A stretch of 57,669 bases of DNA from Synergistaceae bacterium (GTDB lineage: Bacteria > Synergistota > Synergistia > Synergistales > Synergistaceae). The notes under the pieces were generated by a model. The model was not told the origin of the DNA, did no database searches, and saw only the letters and a program-made list of their open reading frames with translations. Location of the stretch: contig JAIRNC010000121.1 in NCBI GenBank assembly GCA_031258255.1, positions 1-57,669 of the forward strand, read 5' to 3'. Positions 41,244 through 51,736 of this stretch are shown in pieces (positions within the stretch are counted from its first letter, which is position 1; each line of letters opens with the position of its first letter). Made by a program: the position numbers and the translations under genes.

Positions 41244-41252
41244 TTCCGAAAG

Positions 41253-41278
41253 AGGTGCCGGCTTACAGCCGGCGCCTT
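41253..41278. terminator. candidate bidirectional terminator between convergent genes
   Basis: AGGTGCCGGC-ttaca-GCCGGCGCCTT hairpin with one G:U pair, located between converging stops; weak T-tracts. Confidence 0.55.
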
Positions 41279-41281
41279 GGG

Positions 41282-43027
41282 TTATCTTTTAGCGCCCTGC
41301 TGCGGTTTCCCATCGCTCAGGACTCCGGATTTCTGCTTGAAGAAGGTCTTGAACCACTTCGACACCTCGCGGGGAAGCACCTTGTATCCCTTGCGCTCCT
41401 TCGAGATCCACAGGAAATAGTCGTTGAAAAAGGACTCCTGCAGCGCACGGATCCCCTTGCCCTTGTTGGCCTTCAACAGCGAGTACGTGTCCTTGAGCGT
41501 CCTGTCCTCGTCGTTGTCCCACCTGAAAGCGGCCAGGGCGAAGCAGAAGTCCTTAACGTCCGACGCTGCCGGAAAGATCGGTATTATGAGGCTGTTGTCC
41601 TCCCAGTCGTACACGCCCAGCCCCTGGCCTGGCACCAGTATCACCCTCGGTATGCCGTACATCCTTATCCTGGACGCGCGCAGCATGTCTGGGTCCAGCG
41701 GGGTCAGGTCCATCATTATCTCGCCAGCCCTCTTCATGGAGACGGGGAGGCCCCTGTTCTGGCACAGAGGGGACTCGTCCAGCCTCGCGGTGTGCGCCGC
41801 CAGCGCCATGAACTCCTTCTTGTGGTTGAGGCCCTCCCTCAGCTCCAGCTTCATGGCCGGGAGACCCTGCCCCTTAAATTTTTTCCTGGACATCTCGCAG
41901 CGGGTCTTCCAGCGCTCGGCCTCGTTCGTCACGTGCACGATCAAGCCGGCCAGGAACTTTGTCCGGTCGTGCAGGGAGAGGACGTTCTGTATTATCTTGA
42001 GGGACTGGTCCAGCGCCTCGTCCTGCTCTTTTTTGTCCTGGGCGGCCGGCGCCGGCTGATCGTCAGCCGTGCCCTCGAAGCACCCCTCCTCCGCCTGCCC
42101 CTCTTCTATCACAGCAGGAGCGGGCGCCGCCTTGGCGGATGGCTCGCCTATCTCAGCGAACGGGTCGAACGATGCGAGCGGGTCCGTGGAGGCTTCCGGT
42201 TCGGGAGCGGCAGTCTCCGCGTGGGGCGCTTCCTGTTCACCCGCCTTCGTCAGCTTCCTTTCGAGGCTGTCCACCAAGTACCAGAACGTGCGCTCGGCGG
42301 TCTCGTAATTTTTGCAGTTCTCCTTAATTTTGGCCCTCTCCTGGTTGTCGGCCTCGCGGATCCTCTTCGTCCTCATGTCGGACTCCGTGGCGTCGCACAG
42401 CCCCTCCTCGAGGCTGCGGAGGATCGTGTCGAGTTCCTTCCCCTCAATAAGGTCCGTCCCGCGGAGCAGCGTGTTCATCGCAAGACGCCGCCTGGTCTGG
42501 GCCGCCTTGAGCTCGCCGTCGAAGCGCTTCAGCTTCTCCTGCAGCGGGACGCCGCCGGACGGCCCGCCATATCGCTTGTCGAAAATGAGCGCGTAGTTCT
42601 CTTTCAGATAGTCCGTAAGGCGGTTGTACTGGTACATGTCCACAGCAGACGGCTGGCCTATCTGCTCCGCGAAGGCGGGGTTAGCTGTGGTGTACTCGGA
42701 GTAAAGGTGGCCGAAGTCGATAAAGAGGCGCTCATGCGCGTCGAACTCCAGTTCGTCTGGCGGGCCTGAGTCTATCTTGGCCTCCACTATCGCCCAGAGC
42801 AGCTCCCAGAAGTGGGAGGCCGCCTTCTGCCACACGATGCGCGCCTTCTTGCGGGTCTCCGAGTCAGAGGCGCCGCGCAGTTTTGCCATGTTCCGGCCCA
42901 GCGTCTGCATCTGGGACGCCAGGGAGGCGATCGTCTTGTTCTCTTTCCAGTGCGACGCCACCCAGCCGATTGCGTCGTCTATCTTCGTAAAATCCCCTGA
43001 ATTATCAGGGACTGCGGCGGCTGTCAT
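41282..43027 (-). CDS. protein of unknown function, two domains joined by a Pro/Ala/Glu linker
   Basis: 581 aa; helical N-terminal half; C-terminal VILVPGQGLGVYDWEDNSLIIPIFP..FALAAFRWDNDEDRTLKDTYSLLKANKG. Confidence 0.85.
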   Translation of the reverse strand: MTAAAVPDNSGDFTKIDDAIGWVASHWKENKTIASLASQMQTLGRNMAKLRGASDSETRKKARIVWQKAASHFWELLWAIVEAKIDSGPPDELEFDAHERLFIDFGHLYSEYTTANPAFAEQIGQPSAVDMYQYNRLTDYLKENYALIFDKRYGGPSGGVPLQEKLKRFDGELKAAQTRRRLAMNTLLRGTDLIEGKELDTILRSLEEGLCDATESDMRTKRIREADNQERAKIKENCKNYETAERTFWYLVDSLERKLTKAGEQEAPHAETAAPEPEASTDPLASFDPFAEIGEPSAKAAPAPAVIEEGQAEEGCFEGTADDQPAPAAQDKKEQDEALDQSLKIIQNVLSLHDRTKFLAGLIVHVTNEAERWKTRCEMSRKKFKGQGLPAMKLELREGLNHKKEFMALAAHTARLDESPLCQNRGLPVSMKRAGEIMMDLTPLDPDMLRASRIRMYGIPRVILVPGQGLGVYDWEDNSLIIPIFPAASDVKDFCFALAAFRWDNDEDRTLKDTYSLLKANKGKGIRALQESFFNDYFLWISKERKGYKVLPREVSKWFKTFFKQKSGVLSDGKPQQGAKR

Positions 43028-43049
43028 ACTACCCCTCCCTTAGAAAAGC

Positions 43050-44198
43050 CTAAAGCCCCAGACAGTGACGGATGCGGGCGTACCAATCCCTCACATCCAC
43101 CGCGCCTATCACTGAGCTGACGGTGTACTGGGGATCCTTGTCGCCTCCTAACGAACAAGTTTCGAGGCATATCTCCCAGTCGTCCCCGCTGAGGAAGAGA
43201 ACCCTGTCGCTCTCCCCCGGCAGCCGCGTGTCCGGCACCAGCCCGAACGCTACCTGCCCGTCGTCGCTCACGAACCTCGTCACCTTGAAGCGCCGGTCGC
43301 CGTGACCCGTCATCTCGAAGCGCTCCCGCTTCTTGAGCTGCTGCTCCTCGGCCAGCTTTGCGGAGTCCTGGACGAACTCTATCCGCGTCCTCTCAAGCAT
43401 GGGCCAGAGCCGGAGGTAGGCGATCAGCCTGGCGACGAAGGGACGTCCAGCGGAGATCATGGAGTTTACGCTTTCCTCAGAACGGTACGCGTTGCCGGGC
43501 AGCGTTTTCCAGAACGCCTCGCCGAACGTGTGCTCGCCCGCCAGCGACCAGTCGCTGAAACCGAACAGCAGGCCCTTCGAGACGGGCAGCAGGAACTCGC
43601 TCCAGCGCTTCGGGTTTGAGTTGATGACCTCCTTCGCCACGGGGGCGTTTCTCATCGTGAAGGGCAGACAGCCCTCTTGCAGGAGGAATCCGGGCCACGG
43701 CCCGCCCTCCTGCATGTTTTGATCGAGGATCGCGGCTTCGGATTCGGTGGGCACGAAACAGGGGCGCATGTACCACTTGCCCTTTTTGGGGGTATAGGCG
43801 TACCAGAGCGTTTCGCGCTTGTTTTCGGCTATCAGGCCCAAGTCCGCCTCGCTACGCGCCGCCTTCGTCGTATGCAGGATGTCGCACAGGAGCTGAACGC
43901 CCCGCCATTCGAGGGATCTCAGCGACAGGGCCTCCTCTCCCTTGGATATGAGGGAGGTGATGCTTTCGATTATGCTCTCCATGGGGTATTCCTTGACCGA
44001 CCGGCCCACCTTTATCTTGAGGCTGCGCTCAGCGCCCTCCGCCCAGGAGAGGTGGACGTATTTCTTCTTGTTCGTGTTGGTGTTGAAAATACCCAGCCTG
44101 GGAAGGTTGTCACTCCTCACAAGCAGCAGCGTGAGGTCGTCATCCATGACCTCCTCGGCGATTACCGACAAATCAGCTCCCGCAGCCAACAAAATCAC
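43050..44198 (-). CDS. protein of unknown function
   Basis: 382 aa, 22 bp upstream of the 581-aa gene; no family recognised. Confidence 0.85.
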   Translation of the reverse strand: MILLAAGADLSVIAEEVMDDDLTLLLVRSDNLPRLGIFNTNTNKKKYVHLSWAEGAERSLKIKVGRSVKEYPMESIIESITSLISKGEEALSLRSLEWRGVQLLCDILHTTKAARSEADLGLIAENKRETLWYAYTPKKGKWYMRPCFVPTESEAAILDQNMQEGGPWPGFLLQEGCLPFTMRNAPVAKEVINSNPKRWSEFLLPVSKGLLFGFSDWSLAGEHTFGEAFWKTLPGNAYRSEESVNSMISAGRPFVARLIAYLRLWPMLERTRIEFVQDSAKLAEEQQLKKRERFEMTGHGDRRFKVTRFVSDDGQVAFGLVPDTRLPGESDRVLFLSGDDWEICLETCSLGGDKDPQYTVSSVIGAVDVRDWYARIRHCLGL

Positions 44199-44305: not shown

Positions 44306-44335
44306 ATTATATACCTTCCAGCCGAGAGCCAACAA
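44306..44335 (-). promoter_or_regulatory. candidate promoter of the 382-aa/581-aa gene pair
   Basis: TTGTTG (44330-44335) N18 TATAAT (44306-44311) on minus strand. Confidence 0.35.
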
Positions 44336-44364: not shown

Positions 44365-44396
44365 CGAAGAGCCGGACTCTCGCGTCCGGCTCTTCG
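44365..44396. terminator. strong hairpin downstream of rpsU
   Basis: Perfect 13-bp stem CGAAGAGCCGGAC / GTCCGGCTCTTCG, 6-nt loop; T-rich (GCGTAATTTTAAC) on minus side. Confidence 0.75.
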
Positions 44397-44420: not shown

Positions 44421-44606
44421 TTAATCCGCCTTCTTGTGCTTGTTGCGAACCGAAGCCGCTTTCTTGCGCTTCTTTATTTCGCTCGGTTTTTCGTAATGCT
44501 CGTGCTTGCGGGCCTCTCGAAGCACTCCTACCTTTCGAAGCTCGCGCTTGAACCGCTTAAGGGCATCCTCTATCGTCTCGTTTTCCCGTCTGACAACGCT
44601 AGTCAT
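44421..44606 (-). CDS. rpsU: 30S ribosomal protein S21
   Basis: 61 aa, [44 protein letters not shown]. Confidence 0.96.
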
Positions 44607-44837: not shown

Positions 44838-45860
44838 TTAACTCAGCTTTCGATCCCGCACAATAGCGGATGCCCACACCCTTACCACCGGCGACCTGTG
44901 CTCCGTCATTATCTTGTTGATCGAGGGCAAAAGCCACATGGGGACCTTCTCCCTCCGGAGCAGCCTCAAAAGCGGCGTCAGTATAGACTCCTCGTCCCTC
45001 TTGAGGAGCCCCAGCATATCGACGGACTCCGGCAGGCTCTGGTCCTGCGGCCACCCGTTGAGAGTGGCGGACACCACCGTGGCGAGCGGGTGGGAGAGGA
45101 ACGGCGCAAAGCATTCCTTTGGCGCGTTTTGCCGCCTAAGCCACCTGAGCGCCATCATCGATTCGGAGGCTGAAAAATGCGCCGCGTGCGACGCCAGCAC
45201 ACGGGCGAGATCGGCTGACATGTCCGAAGCGGAGAAGAGCGACAGCAGGCTCTCCAGTATCTCAGCGGATGGGGCGTGCCTCGCGAAGTGGTCGATCACG
45301 GCCCTGCGTATGTCGTTAGTCGCCTCCCTGCCGGATATGCCCCGCAGGGCTAGCATGACGACGCCAGGGTGTCCGCTCCTGAGCCTCCGCAGTATGGCCT
45401 CAGCCCTGCTTTTGGCATGGACCTCCCCGCACCGGGAGAGGAGCGTCCGCATGTCGGACTCGGCCCTCGATATGGCGCTGCCGATGAAGCGCAGCCTGGC
45501 TGGCGGGATGTCGTGGTCTGACGCCTCGCTCTCGTGCCTTCCCGTCTTAGCGCCGCCGAAGAGCTTGTCCCAGAAGGACTTGAATATCGATTCTCCCTTC
45601 TCTTCGGGCGTGGCCTGCCTGGGCTGCCGCCAGTCGCGCTCGGCGCGCTCGCGGGCCGCCCTCTTGCCGGGGTACCCCCCGGCGACGGTCTCCTTCAGCG
45701 TCATATAGGCCTCCGTTATCTCGGAGAATTTCCTCGTCCCCTCCGGCCCGGCCACGTCCGGGTGATACTTACGGGCGAGGTGCCTGAACGCGCGTTTCAC
45801 CTCGTCCCAGCTCGCGTCGGACGATAGGCCCAGGACCTTAAAGTTGGCGTTTGAGTTCAC
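44838..45860 (-). CDS. J-domain protein with C-terminal HEAT-like helical repeats
   Basis: GTG start at 45860 overlapping the Hsp70-like stop (GTGA); FKVLGLSSDASWDEVKRAFRHLARKYHPDVAGPEG with HPD; no DnaJ zinc fingers. Confidence 0.88.
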   Translation of the reverse strand: MNSNANFKVLGLSSDASWDEVKRAFRHLARKYHPDVAGPEGTRKFSEITEAYMTLKETVAGGYPGKRAARERAERDWRQPRQATPEEKGESIFKSFWDKLFGGAKTGRHESEASDHDIPPARLRFIGSAISRAESDMRTLLSRCGEVHAKSRAEAILRRLRSGHPGVVMLALRGISGREATNDIRRAVIDHFARHAPSAEILESLLSLFSASDMSADLARVLASHAAHFSASESMMALRWLRRQNAPKECFAPFLSHPLATVVSATLNGWPQDQSLPESVDMLGLLKRDEESILTPLLRLLRREKVPMWLLPSINKIMTEHRSPVVRVWASAIVRDRKLS

Positions 45861-47431
45861 GGGGAGACCACCTGCTCTATCTCGGCGACCAGGCGGTCTA
45901 TCACTTCGAGCGCCTGCCACCGCAGCGCGCTGTCCTCGTTCCTGAGCGACCTGGCCTCAGCCATCACGGCAGTCAGGCGCTGCTGGAAGTTGTCCGGGAA
46001 CGCGATGGAGAGCCTGGCAAGGCGGTCCTCCCTCACGCGCAGCTCCGTCAGGATGTCGCAGGGGGGCATGCCGGACTCGTCCGACTCCAGTGATATCGTC
46101 TTCCTGCTGGTCTTTTTCTTCCTCTTCACCTCGACATGAAGGAGCCCGCCGCCGTCCACGCGAAAGAAGATGTCAACGATCTCGCCGTCCTTCACGTTTT
46201 CGACGAGTATGGTCTGCAAAACCCTGTTGAGCTTTTTGACCTTCCCCTCCCCCTGCACTATCGTGACCTCGAGGCTGCCATTGCCGTAAGCCGTAAAGCC
46301 CCTCTTCGCCTCAGCAGGGAGGGGCGTCCCCCTGCCCAATATCTGGACGACGCCGCCGTCAACGTCCAACACGCCGAGACTCCGGCTCAACACGTCGATC
46401 AGGAGCCGCTCGCTCCCCTGGTTAGCGTAAAGCGCGGTGCCGGTGACCACTGCGTCCTCAGGGGATGAGCGGAGGCGTTCCGGCGCCGTGACCTTAGCCG
46501 CCAGGGAGGAGCGGAGCAGCGGTATCCGCCCGCTGCCACCGACCAAGAGCAGTTTTTGTGGCTTGTGCTTCTTCCACATGCGGGAGACCATGCCCGTCAC
46601 CTCGTCGATCACCGGGCGTATCAGCGCCTCAAAATCCTGCCGGGACACCTCTTGCGACCTGTCGCGGGAGAGCATCCCGGAGGGGACGCGCCACGTGACG
46701 CTCCCTGCGGCGCTCAGGGCTATCTTTACCGCTTCGGCCTCCGTCATCATGAGCGAACCCCTGGGATCCTCGGCCCTGGAAAACGGCACCCCTGCCCTCC
46801 GGCACATCCAGTCCGCCAGGAGCCTGTCGAGGTCGTAGCCGCCGATGTCCTTCCTGCCCTTGCTCTCTATCACCTGAAAGACGCCGCGCTCCCCCTCCAC
46901 GAGGGATAGGTCCAGCGTCCCCGCGCCAAAGTCGATGATCAAGAACCTGCCGTCCATGCCGATGGAGAGGGCGGCAGCCGTGGGCTCGTTCACTATCCTG
47001 ACCCGCTCGAACCCGGCGCTCTGCGCCGCCCGCGCCAACGCGCCGCGCTCCGGGAAGCTGAAGTGGGCTGGGACGGCGAGGACGCAGGACGAGACGAACA
47101 TCCGGAGGTGCGCCTCGGCGTCCTCGCGCAGCAGACAGAGCAAAGGGACTAAGAGCTCCTCTGGCGTGTAGCTCCTCCCGCCCAGGCGGGCCACCCAGTC
47201 CGTGCCGAGGCGACGCTTTATGTCCCACCACGCCAACTGGGGATCTCTCGCCGCGAGCTTGGCCGCGTCCACGCCAGCCACCAGCCCGTCGCTTGAGACC
47301 GCGACCATCGAGGGCGTCCGCGTCTCGCCCCACCTGTTAGGTATGAGCGAGACGCCCCGCCCCGGCAGGTCGACAGCCAGCTGGGCGTATCTAGTACCTA
47401 GATCTATTCCGATAACGACGTTGTCCTTCAA
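45857..47431 (-). CDS. divergent Hsp70/DnaK-like protein
   Basis: 524 aa, [46 protein letters not shown], linker-like LIDVLSRSLGVLD. Confidence 0.93.
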   Translation of the reverse strand: MKDNVVIGIDLGTRYAQLAVDLPGRGVSLIPNRWGETRTPSMVAVSSDGLVAGVDAAKLAARDPQLAWWDIKRRLGTDWVARLGGRSYTPEELLVPLLCLLREDAEAHLRMFVSSCVLAVPAHFSFPERGALARAAQSAGFERVRIVNEPTAAALSIGMDGRFLIIDFGAGTLDLSLVEGERGVFQVIESKGRKDIGGYDLDRLLADWMCRRAGVPFSRAEDPRGSLMMTEAEAVKIALSAAGSVTWRVPSGMLSRDRSQEVSRQDFEALIRPVIDEVTGMVSRMWKKHKPQKLLLVGGSGRIPLLRSSLAAKVTAPERLRSSPEDAVVTGTALYANQGSERLLIDVLSRSLGVLDVDGGVVQILGRGTPLPAEAKRGFTAYGNGSLEVTIVQGEGKVKKLNRVLQTILVENVKDGEIVDIFFRVDGGGLLHVEVKRKKKTSRKTISLESDESGMPPCDILTELRVREDRLARLSIAFPDNFQQRLTAVMAEARSLRNEDSALRWQALEVIDRLVAEIEQVVSP

Positions 47432-50584: not shown

Positions 50585-51736
50585 CTATCCGGCAAATTTG
50601 TCGCGCAGTTTGCTGAAAAGCCCCTTGTCCTCGGAGACCTCGACGTTCATCTCGGCCGCGAGTTCTGTCAGCAGCTTCCTCGCCGTCTCGGACAGGGATT
50701 TTGGAACGCTGACCCGGACGTGTATGTGCATGTCCCCGTTGCCGGTGCCCCTGAGCCTGGGCATGCCCCGGTTCTTTATCCTCAGCACCGAGCCAGGCTG
50801 GGTGCCGGAGGGGATCTCCAGCTTCTCCACCCCGTCAAACGTCGGTATGGAGACGGTCGTGCCCAGCGCGGCCTGCGGCATCGCAATGTCCACCTTGGCG
50901 TGTAGGTCGGCCCCGTCGCGCTGGAAACGGCTGTCCGGCGTCACGTCCAGCAGTATGAAGAGATCGCCGGGCGGCCCGCCGTTCCTGCCGCCCTCGCCCT
51001 CCCCGCTAATGCGGAGCCTCGTGCCGGTATCGACGCCGGGCGGTATCCTCACGTCGAGCTTGCGGTTGCGCCGCACCCTGCCATGTCCGCCGCACTCCGT
51101 GCAGCGCGTCTTTATGATCTTGCCTGCGCCCCTGCACTGTACGCACGCGACGACCTGTACCATCTGCCCGAAGGGCGTGTTGGTCACGCGCTCCACCTGA
51201 CCGCTGCCGCCGCACGCCGAGCATGTCTCCACCTGAGTGCCAGGCTCCGCGCCGCTCCCAGAGCAGCGGTGGCAGTTCTCCTCGCGCGGCACCTCGACCT
51301 CGCGCGTGGCGCCCTTGTAGGCCGTCTCCAGCGTTATCCTCATGGACATCTCCAGGTCGGAACCCCTGCGGGGGGCGTTGGGGGCCGTTCGGCTCCGCCC
51401 CATCCCCCCAAAAAAGTTGTCGAAGATATCCCCGAATATGTCGCCGCCCATGCCGCCGAACGGATCCCTGCCGCCGTAGCCGCCGCCGGGCGGGGCGTCC
51501 CCTACGAAGCCGAACTGGTCGTACTGAGCCTTCTTCTGGGCGTCGCTCAAGACATCGTTCGCCTCGTTGATCTCCTTGAACTTCTTCTCGGCGTCCGCGT
51601 TGCCCGGGTTCGCGTCAGGGTGGTACTTCCGCGTTAGCTTCCTGTATGCCTTCTTGATGTCGTCAGGCGAAGCGTTCCGAGGCACTCCCAGGATTTCGTA
51701 ATAATCTTTCTTGCCCGGCGCTGCCACGGCACTCAC
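50585..51736 (-). CDS. dnaJ: chaperone DnaJ
   Basis: 383 aa, J domain [13 protein letters not shown] region, four CxxCxGxG-type zinc motifs. Confidence 0.97.

Follow-up and report, generated by a model that had tools for sequence, protein, structure and literature searches.

The question raised by this locus is what function is served by two large proteins, of 382 and 581 amino acids, which are encoded side by side near rpsU and which an earlier note, made from the sequence alone, could assign to no recognisable family. The window, that is the whole stretch of DNA analysed, comprises positions 1 to 57,669 of contig JAIRNC010000121.1 (assembly GCA_031258255.1) from a Synergistaceae bacterium. 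The two proteins are referred to as A2 and A1, respectively, and the features of the window that concern them are as follows.

2539-33520, minus strand: main flagellar and chemotaxis cluster, given as context and lying outside the pair
41252-41278, no strand assigned: hairpin where the 3' ends of A1 and an AMP-ligase gene converge, folding z -2.8
41282-43027, minus strand: A1 gene (581-aa protein, family A1)
41330-41992, minus strand: C-terminal domain of A1, its best conserved part (residues 346-566), in which the motifs PG-G...Y-W and RWD-D-DR..K are invariant
42047-42235, minus strand: Pro/Ala/Glu low-complexity linker of A1 (residues about 265-327)
43050-44198, minus strand: A2 gene (382-aa protein, family A2), GTG start
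about 44306-44335, minus strand: candidate promoter TTGTTG-N18-TATAAT, with a perfect -10 and a weak -35 element
44365-44396, minus strand: strong terminator-like hairpin after rpsU, folding z -5.8
about 44421-44606, minus strand: rpsU (61 aa), upstream of the pair and in the same direction

The gene pair, its borders and its predicted architecture

Both reading frames proposed in the earlier note were recovered, on the same strand and separated by 22 bp. The two proteins are conserved over their full length in relatives, and dN/dS values of 0.08-0.12 against congeners indicate strong purifying selection; given this end-to-end conservation and constraint, A1 and A2 are far more than chance open reading frames, as had been supposed when the pair was described as maintained. 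The hairpin that follows rpsU sets this gene apart from the A2/A1 pair, and the hairpin reported at the convergent 3' end was also found to be real. The promoter claim stood in part, in that the element is present and its -10 hexamer is kept in most congeners, but the -35 hexamer fits the consensus at only three of six positions, for which reason a consensus scan made no call. At this candidate promoter, TATATAAT is kept in three genomes (G000, G001 and G003) and is less exact in two (G002 and G015). No sigma-28-type promoter was found in a search upstream of the pair.

The layout of A1 consists of a helical N-terminal region, a disordered acidic linker, a long helical hairpin and a conserved C-terminal alpha/beta domain. 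The linker, which the earlier note had correctly described as rich in Pro, Ala and Glu, is mostly of low confidence in the AlphaFold model, is the fastest evolving part of the protein (the C-terminal domain being the slowest) and is missing from homologues outside the window's own lineage. Elsewhere the A1 model is good (mean pLDDT 82.4). That of A2 is confident throughout (mean pLDDT 91.1, pTM 0.90) and globular, with a beta-rich N-terminal part, a central helical part and a C-terminal part of beta structure plus a helix. No signal peptide was seen in either protein by inspection, and both are predicted to be cytoplasmic. In genus g43 the C-terminal domain of A1 occurs in a second, divergent copy (G074:C77:3552-3899, G075:C52:13597-13941, G076:C102:71631-72029 and G077:C88:104863-105231).

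Searches of Pfam, NCBIfam, PHROGs, PADLOC and PDB sequences, conducted with single proteins or with alignments and profiles, returned no significant match for A1 or A2, and Pfam matched no member of either family. Similarities to KELK, gamma/tau and PD-T4-6 were dismissed as low-complexity or coiled-coil noise. When the AlphaFold models of both proteins were compared with solved structures in the PDB using Foldseek, nothing was retrieved at E < 0.001, and the A2 model likewise retrieved nothing below E 0.001 among viral structures. A PUR/Whirly-like repeat in A2, suspected from its strand-helix order, was backed by no search. Neither protein showed a response-regulator, PilZ, CheW or receptor domain in the family searches, and no fold or motif found in the family searches or by Foldseek against the PDB points to an activity. 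The initial impression of proteins without a recognisable family has therefore persisted through profile searches and Foldseek on AlphaFold models: no characterised family was matched, and homologues exist that are under constraint. Toxin-antitoxin, phage and defence genes were rejected on the grounds that neither PHROGs nor PADLOC gave a significant match and that A1, judged by its tree, has been inherited largely vertically in the window's family; family, fold and selection tests agree with the early view that the pair is unlike transposon, phage or toxin-antitoxin genes.

Among the weak Foldseek neighbours of A1 were PprI/IrrE, an insulin-cleaving protease and an M61 aminopeptidase (E values of 4.5-7.4 and probabilities of at most 0.11), and in A1 a pair of strands precedes a helix, which is the right order for a zincin. 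A1 could accordingly be a degenerate metalloprotease-like protein whose C-terminal domain, devoid of a metal site, now binds a partner or substrate. All of these scores are, however, insignificant and HExxH is absent from the conserved columns of A1, such that we regard this as very unlikely. It concerns the fold of A1 and would not conflict with a role in the flagellum.

Distribution across the Synergistota and association with flagella

Two conserved A1 motifs were utilised to scan about 85,000 species genomes, and A1 relatives were identified exclusively in Synergistota (79 loci); all homologues of A1 and A2 found lie within this phylum. The named records among these relatives were Synergistota metagenome assemblies, many with gut or rumen labels, and one complete genome (strain L-13). 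Thermanaerovibrio acidaminovorans (G005) and T. velox (G178) carry both proteins. Across 188 Synergistota genomes, A1 was present in 112 and A2 in 116, with 111 genomes encoding both proteins, six only one and 71 neither. The corresponding numbers for a good-quality subset (completeness of at least 90%, contamination of no more than 5%) were 70, 2 and 44. Adjacency of A1 and A2 was restricted to part of f1, the window's family, and the tandem arrangement is thus lineage-specific; elsewhere, including f3-f6 and Thermanaerovibrio, the two genes are unlinked, often lying hundreds of kilobases apart, and their co-occurrence is therefore not explained by linkage alone. That the two proteins go together even where their genes are unlinked is the strongest indication of a joint function. 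A mirror-tree comparison of the two families given rpoB yielded a partial correlation of 0.45 (14 genomes), which was not counted as evidence. A2 has undergone an old duplication, both copies of which are retained in G008.

The presence of a flagellum was scored by the export protein FlhA (PF00771), which was found in 130 of the 188 genomes and in 110 of the 117 carriers of the pair; 20 genomes encoded FlhA without the pair and 51 had neither. In the good-quality genomes, 70 harboured the pair and FlhA, two the pair without FlhA (G078 and G166, both fragmented assemblies), 12 FlhA without the pair and 32 neither. Flagellin was also absent from all six FlhA-negative genomes checked. Fisher values for the association are tiny, though they ignore kinship. 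Mapped on an rpoB tree covering 98 genomes, the pair had changed at least nine times and FlhA at least 14 times; over eight independent contrasts the two changed in the same direction in 5.3 cases on average, with essentially no case of opposite change. The phylogenetic sign test was borderline (median p 0.06, range 0.016-0.5), and the link between the pair and flagella is, after phylogenetic correction, suggestive but not decisive.

Two observations were made on the rpoB genes themselves. That of G132 (G132:C78:24665-33577) is a single frame of 3122 codons that contains large insertions kept in frame, as would be expected of inteins, and a further RpoB-like frame, divergent and 1546-1726 codons long, was seen at G139:C1:506929-507903, G142:C37:18010-18984, G056:C1:2858099-2859022 and G028:C48:3259-4518.

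There were also instances of flagella without the pair, namely in genomes of f2, f7, f8, f9, f10, f11 and f12 and in G135, and the pair is consequently not an essential or core part of flagella. That flagellated early branches live without it, and that the tree offers only about eight independent contrasts, would also suit a pair of unrelated function, for example in RNA or stress biology, which was retained in the clades that keep flagella since the loss of flagella accompanied a broader loss of genes. Simple genome reduction is not enough to account for the pattern, however, as two large aflagellate genomes (G018 and G159, 3.5-3.6 Mb) also lack the pair, and genome size was on this basis ruled out as its driver. 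A further argument comes from G063, a single-contig closed genome without flagella and with no detectable A2, in which the loss of A2 left its neighbours intact: BipA, a redoxin gene and other genes that surround A2 in the relative G065 are retained, most at 65-90% identity, and G065 retains A2 between them. With the gene neighbourhoods described below also taken into account, we hold an unrelated function to be improbable.

Gene neighbourhoods

In the window, the pair is situated among rpsU, dnaK-like and dnaJ-like genes, which would fit a function in RNA or stress biology, and the earlier note had placed the pair beside rpsU and proposed to look for a phenotype under heat or proteotoxic stress. 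Only close relatives (L022-L024 and L026) share this neighbourhood, which is absent in G014, G020, G024 and the unlinked lineages. Since its conservation is only local, neither a tie to rpsU/dnaK nor a proteotoxic role is supported, and a chaperone (DnaK/DnaJ) partner was rejected on synteny; the flagellum is suggested instead by the distribution of the pair and by an independent operon. Within the window itself, a divergent Hsp70 (524 aa) adjoins a J-domain protein (360 aa) at 44838-47431, and an ordinary DnaJ gene is located separately at 50585-51736.

The main flagellar and chemotaxis cluster of the window, whose nearer end is about 8 kb away from the pair, includes genes for FapA, a FliA-type sigma factor, CheA, CheB, YcgR, a MinD/FleN-type ATPase, an FlhF-type GTPase, FlhA, FlhB, FliM, a FliN-type protein, MotB, FlgE, FliK, FliI, FliG and FliF. 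A1 and A2 are usually not beside core flagellar genes. The independent operon was found in 41 genomes of genus g24, where A2 is the leading gene and is followed on the same strand, after about 9-50 bp (112 bp in one genome), by a gene for an FlgT-like protein; this arrangement is known from that one genus only. It is this g24 gene downstream of A2 that matches FlgT_C (PF16538); A1 and A2 do not. All 16 scanned members of the FlgT-like family match FlgT_C, the protein of G035 doing so above the curated cut-off. In three g24 loci read in detail, the FlgT-like gene is succeeded by a TPR protein and then by two unknown secreted proteins. The proteins encoded after the FlgT-like gene in the A2 operon look secreted, whilst A2 itself appears cytoplasmic.

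Outside g24, the FlgT-like operon stands apart from both A1 and A2. It occurs across flagellated Synergistota families, usually with TPR and secreted-protein genes and away from the main cluster, as at the following loci.

L301:6758-10764: FlgT-like operon
L328:7425-10669: FlgT-like operon
L331:7233-10141: FlgT-like operon
L334:6448-9211: FlgT-like operon
L327:2048-4313: FlgT-like operon

A broad model detected the FlgT-like protein in 126 genomes, among them 112 of the 117 carriers and also flagellated members of f2, f9 and f11 that lack the pair. A proposal from a three-sequence model, that the FlgT-like protein tracks the pair more tightly than flagella do, was dropped because the broad model finds it in these three families.

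These neighbourhoods also bear on whether the pair belongs to chemotaxis or other motility-linked signalling, and is lost with flagella because swimming is lost. An identical distribution would result, A1 and A2 both appear cytoplasmic, cheA and cheB lie in the same region of the window, and a chemoreceptor-like gene was seen, by inspection only, two genes downstream of A1 in 13 g24 loci. Set against this, the family searches revealed none of the signalling domains named above (response-regulator, PilZ, CheW or receptor) in A1 or A2, and the operon that A2 shares with the FlgT-like gene and two secreted-protein genes in g24 points towards the envelope part of the flagellum. We therefore consider a chemotactic role unlikely. 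The same A2-FlgT-like operon, and the failure of the rpsU/dnaK neighbourhood to extend beyond close relatives, also argue against the unrelated function considered above.

A candidate accessory module of the flagellum

The reading that we favour, with a probability of roughly 0.6, is that the pair constitutes a Synergistota-specific cytoplasmic accessory module of the flagellum. What the analysis shows is that the genes are constrained, that the two proteins almost always occur together, that they are nearly absent from genomes without flagella and that A2 shares an operon with an FlgT-like gene in one genus. Against this reading stand the flagellated branches that lack the pair, the borderline phylogenetic test, the usual distance of A1 and A2 from core flagellar genes, the restriction of the A2-FlgT-like operon to g24, the failure to find a sigma-28-type promoter upstream and the contrast in that operon between secreted-looking products and a cytoplasmic-looking A2. 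A1 may have the shape of a scaffold, in which a helical region, a flexible linker and a long helical hairpin end in the highly conserved alpha/beta domain, and A2 would be its compact globular partner. We infer that A1 and A2 bind each other, that their target is the flagellum and not chemotaxis or another motility-linked process, and a biochemical role in which the two proteins, located in the cell interior, would probably help to assemble, place or regulate the FlgT-bearing flagellum.

In Vibrio, FlgT belongs to the H-ring, which surrounds the L-ring of the flagellum (PMC6375700). This FlgT/FlgO/FlgP H-ring of Vibrio-type flagella resembles the present system in that an FlgT_C protein co-occurs with the pair and shares the A2 operon in 41 genomes, but the H-ring proteins are periplasmic or of the outer membrane, whereas A1 and A2 appear cytoplasmic and do not match FlgT. 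FlhF and FlhG (FleN), which regulate flagellar placement and number, offer a likeness of another kind, since in our working model A1 and A2 are also a cytoplasmic protein pair tied to flagella; the GTPase and ATPase domains of these regulators are, however, absent from A1 and A2, and FlhF- and FleN-type genes occur separately in the window. Other clade-specific flagellar accessory proteins without relatives elsewhere exist, and these are comparable to the pair in that they do not extend beyond a single phylum and that some flagellated relatives manage without them, although no relation in sequence or fold to A1 or A2 was found.

When large conserved proteins of no known family accompany one cellular machine across much of a phylum, they make good candidates for components of it that have yet to be described. 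The flagella of Synergistota are little studied, and the pair, along with the FlgT-like operon outside the main cluster, provides concrete genes to test, whilst the confident A2 model without a PDB match represents a target for structural work. Some members of the phylum bear their flagella as a lateral tuft at the concave face of a curved cell, and T. acidaminovorans and T. velox, which carry the pair, are described as swimming with flagella of this concave-side, lateral type (PMC3035242, PMC3910556). A more specific scenario, in which the pair is a novel module of two cytoplasmic proteins, of which at least A2 has a new fold, and controls where or how FlgT-bearing lateral flagella are built, for instance as a concave-side tuft of a curved cell, is conceivable but a long shot. 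Giant flagellins, of a kind reported for Aminomonas paucivorans (PMC6248924), also seem to be present in two of the Synergistota genomes, with flagellin N-terminal domains situated in open frames of 897-1006 codons (G031:C4:160765-161175 and 220146-220553; G033:C1:77872-78285 and 139462-139872).
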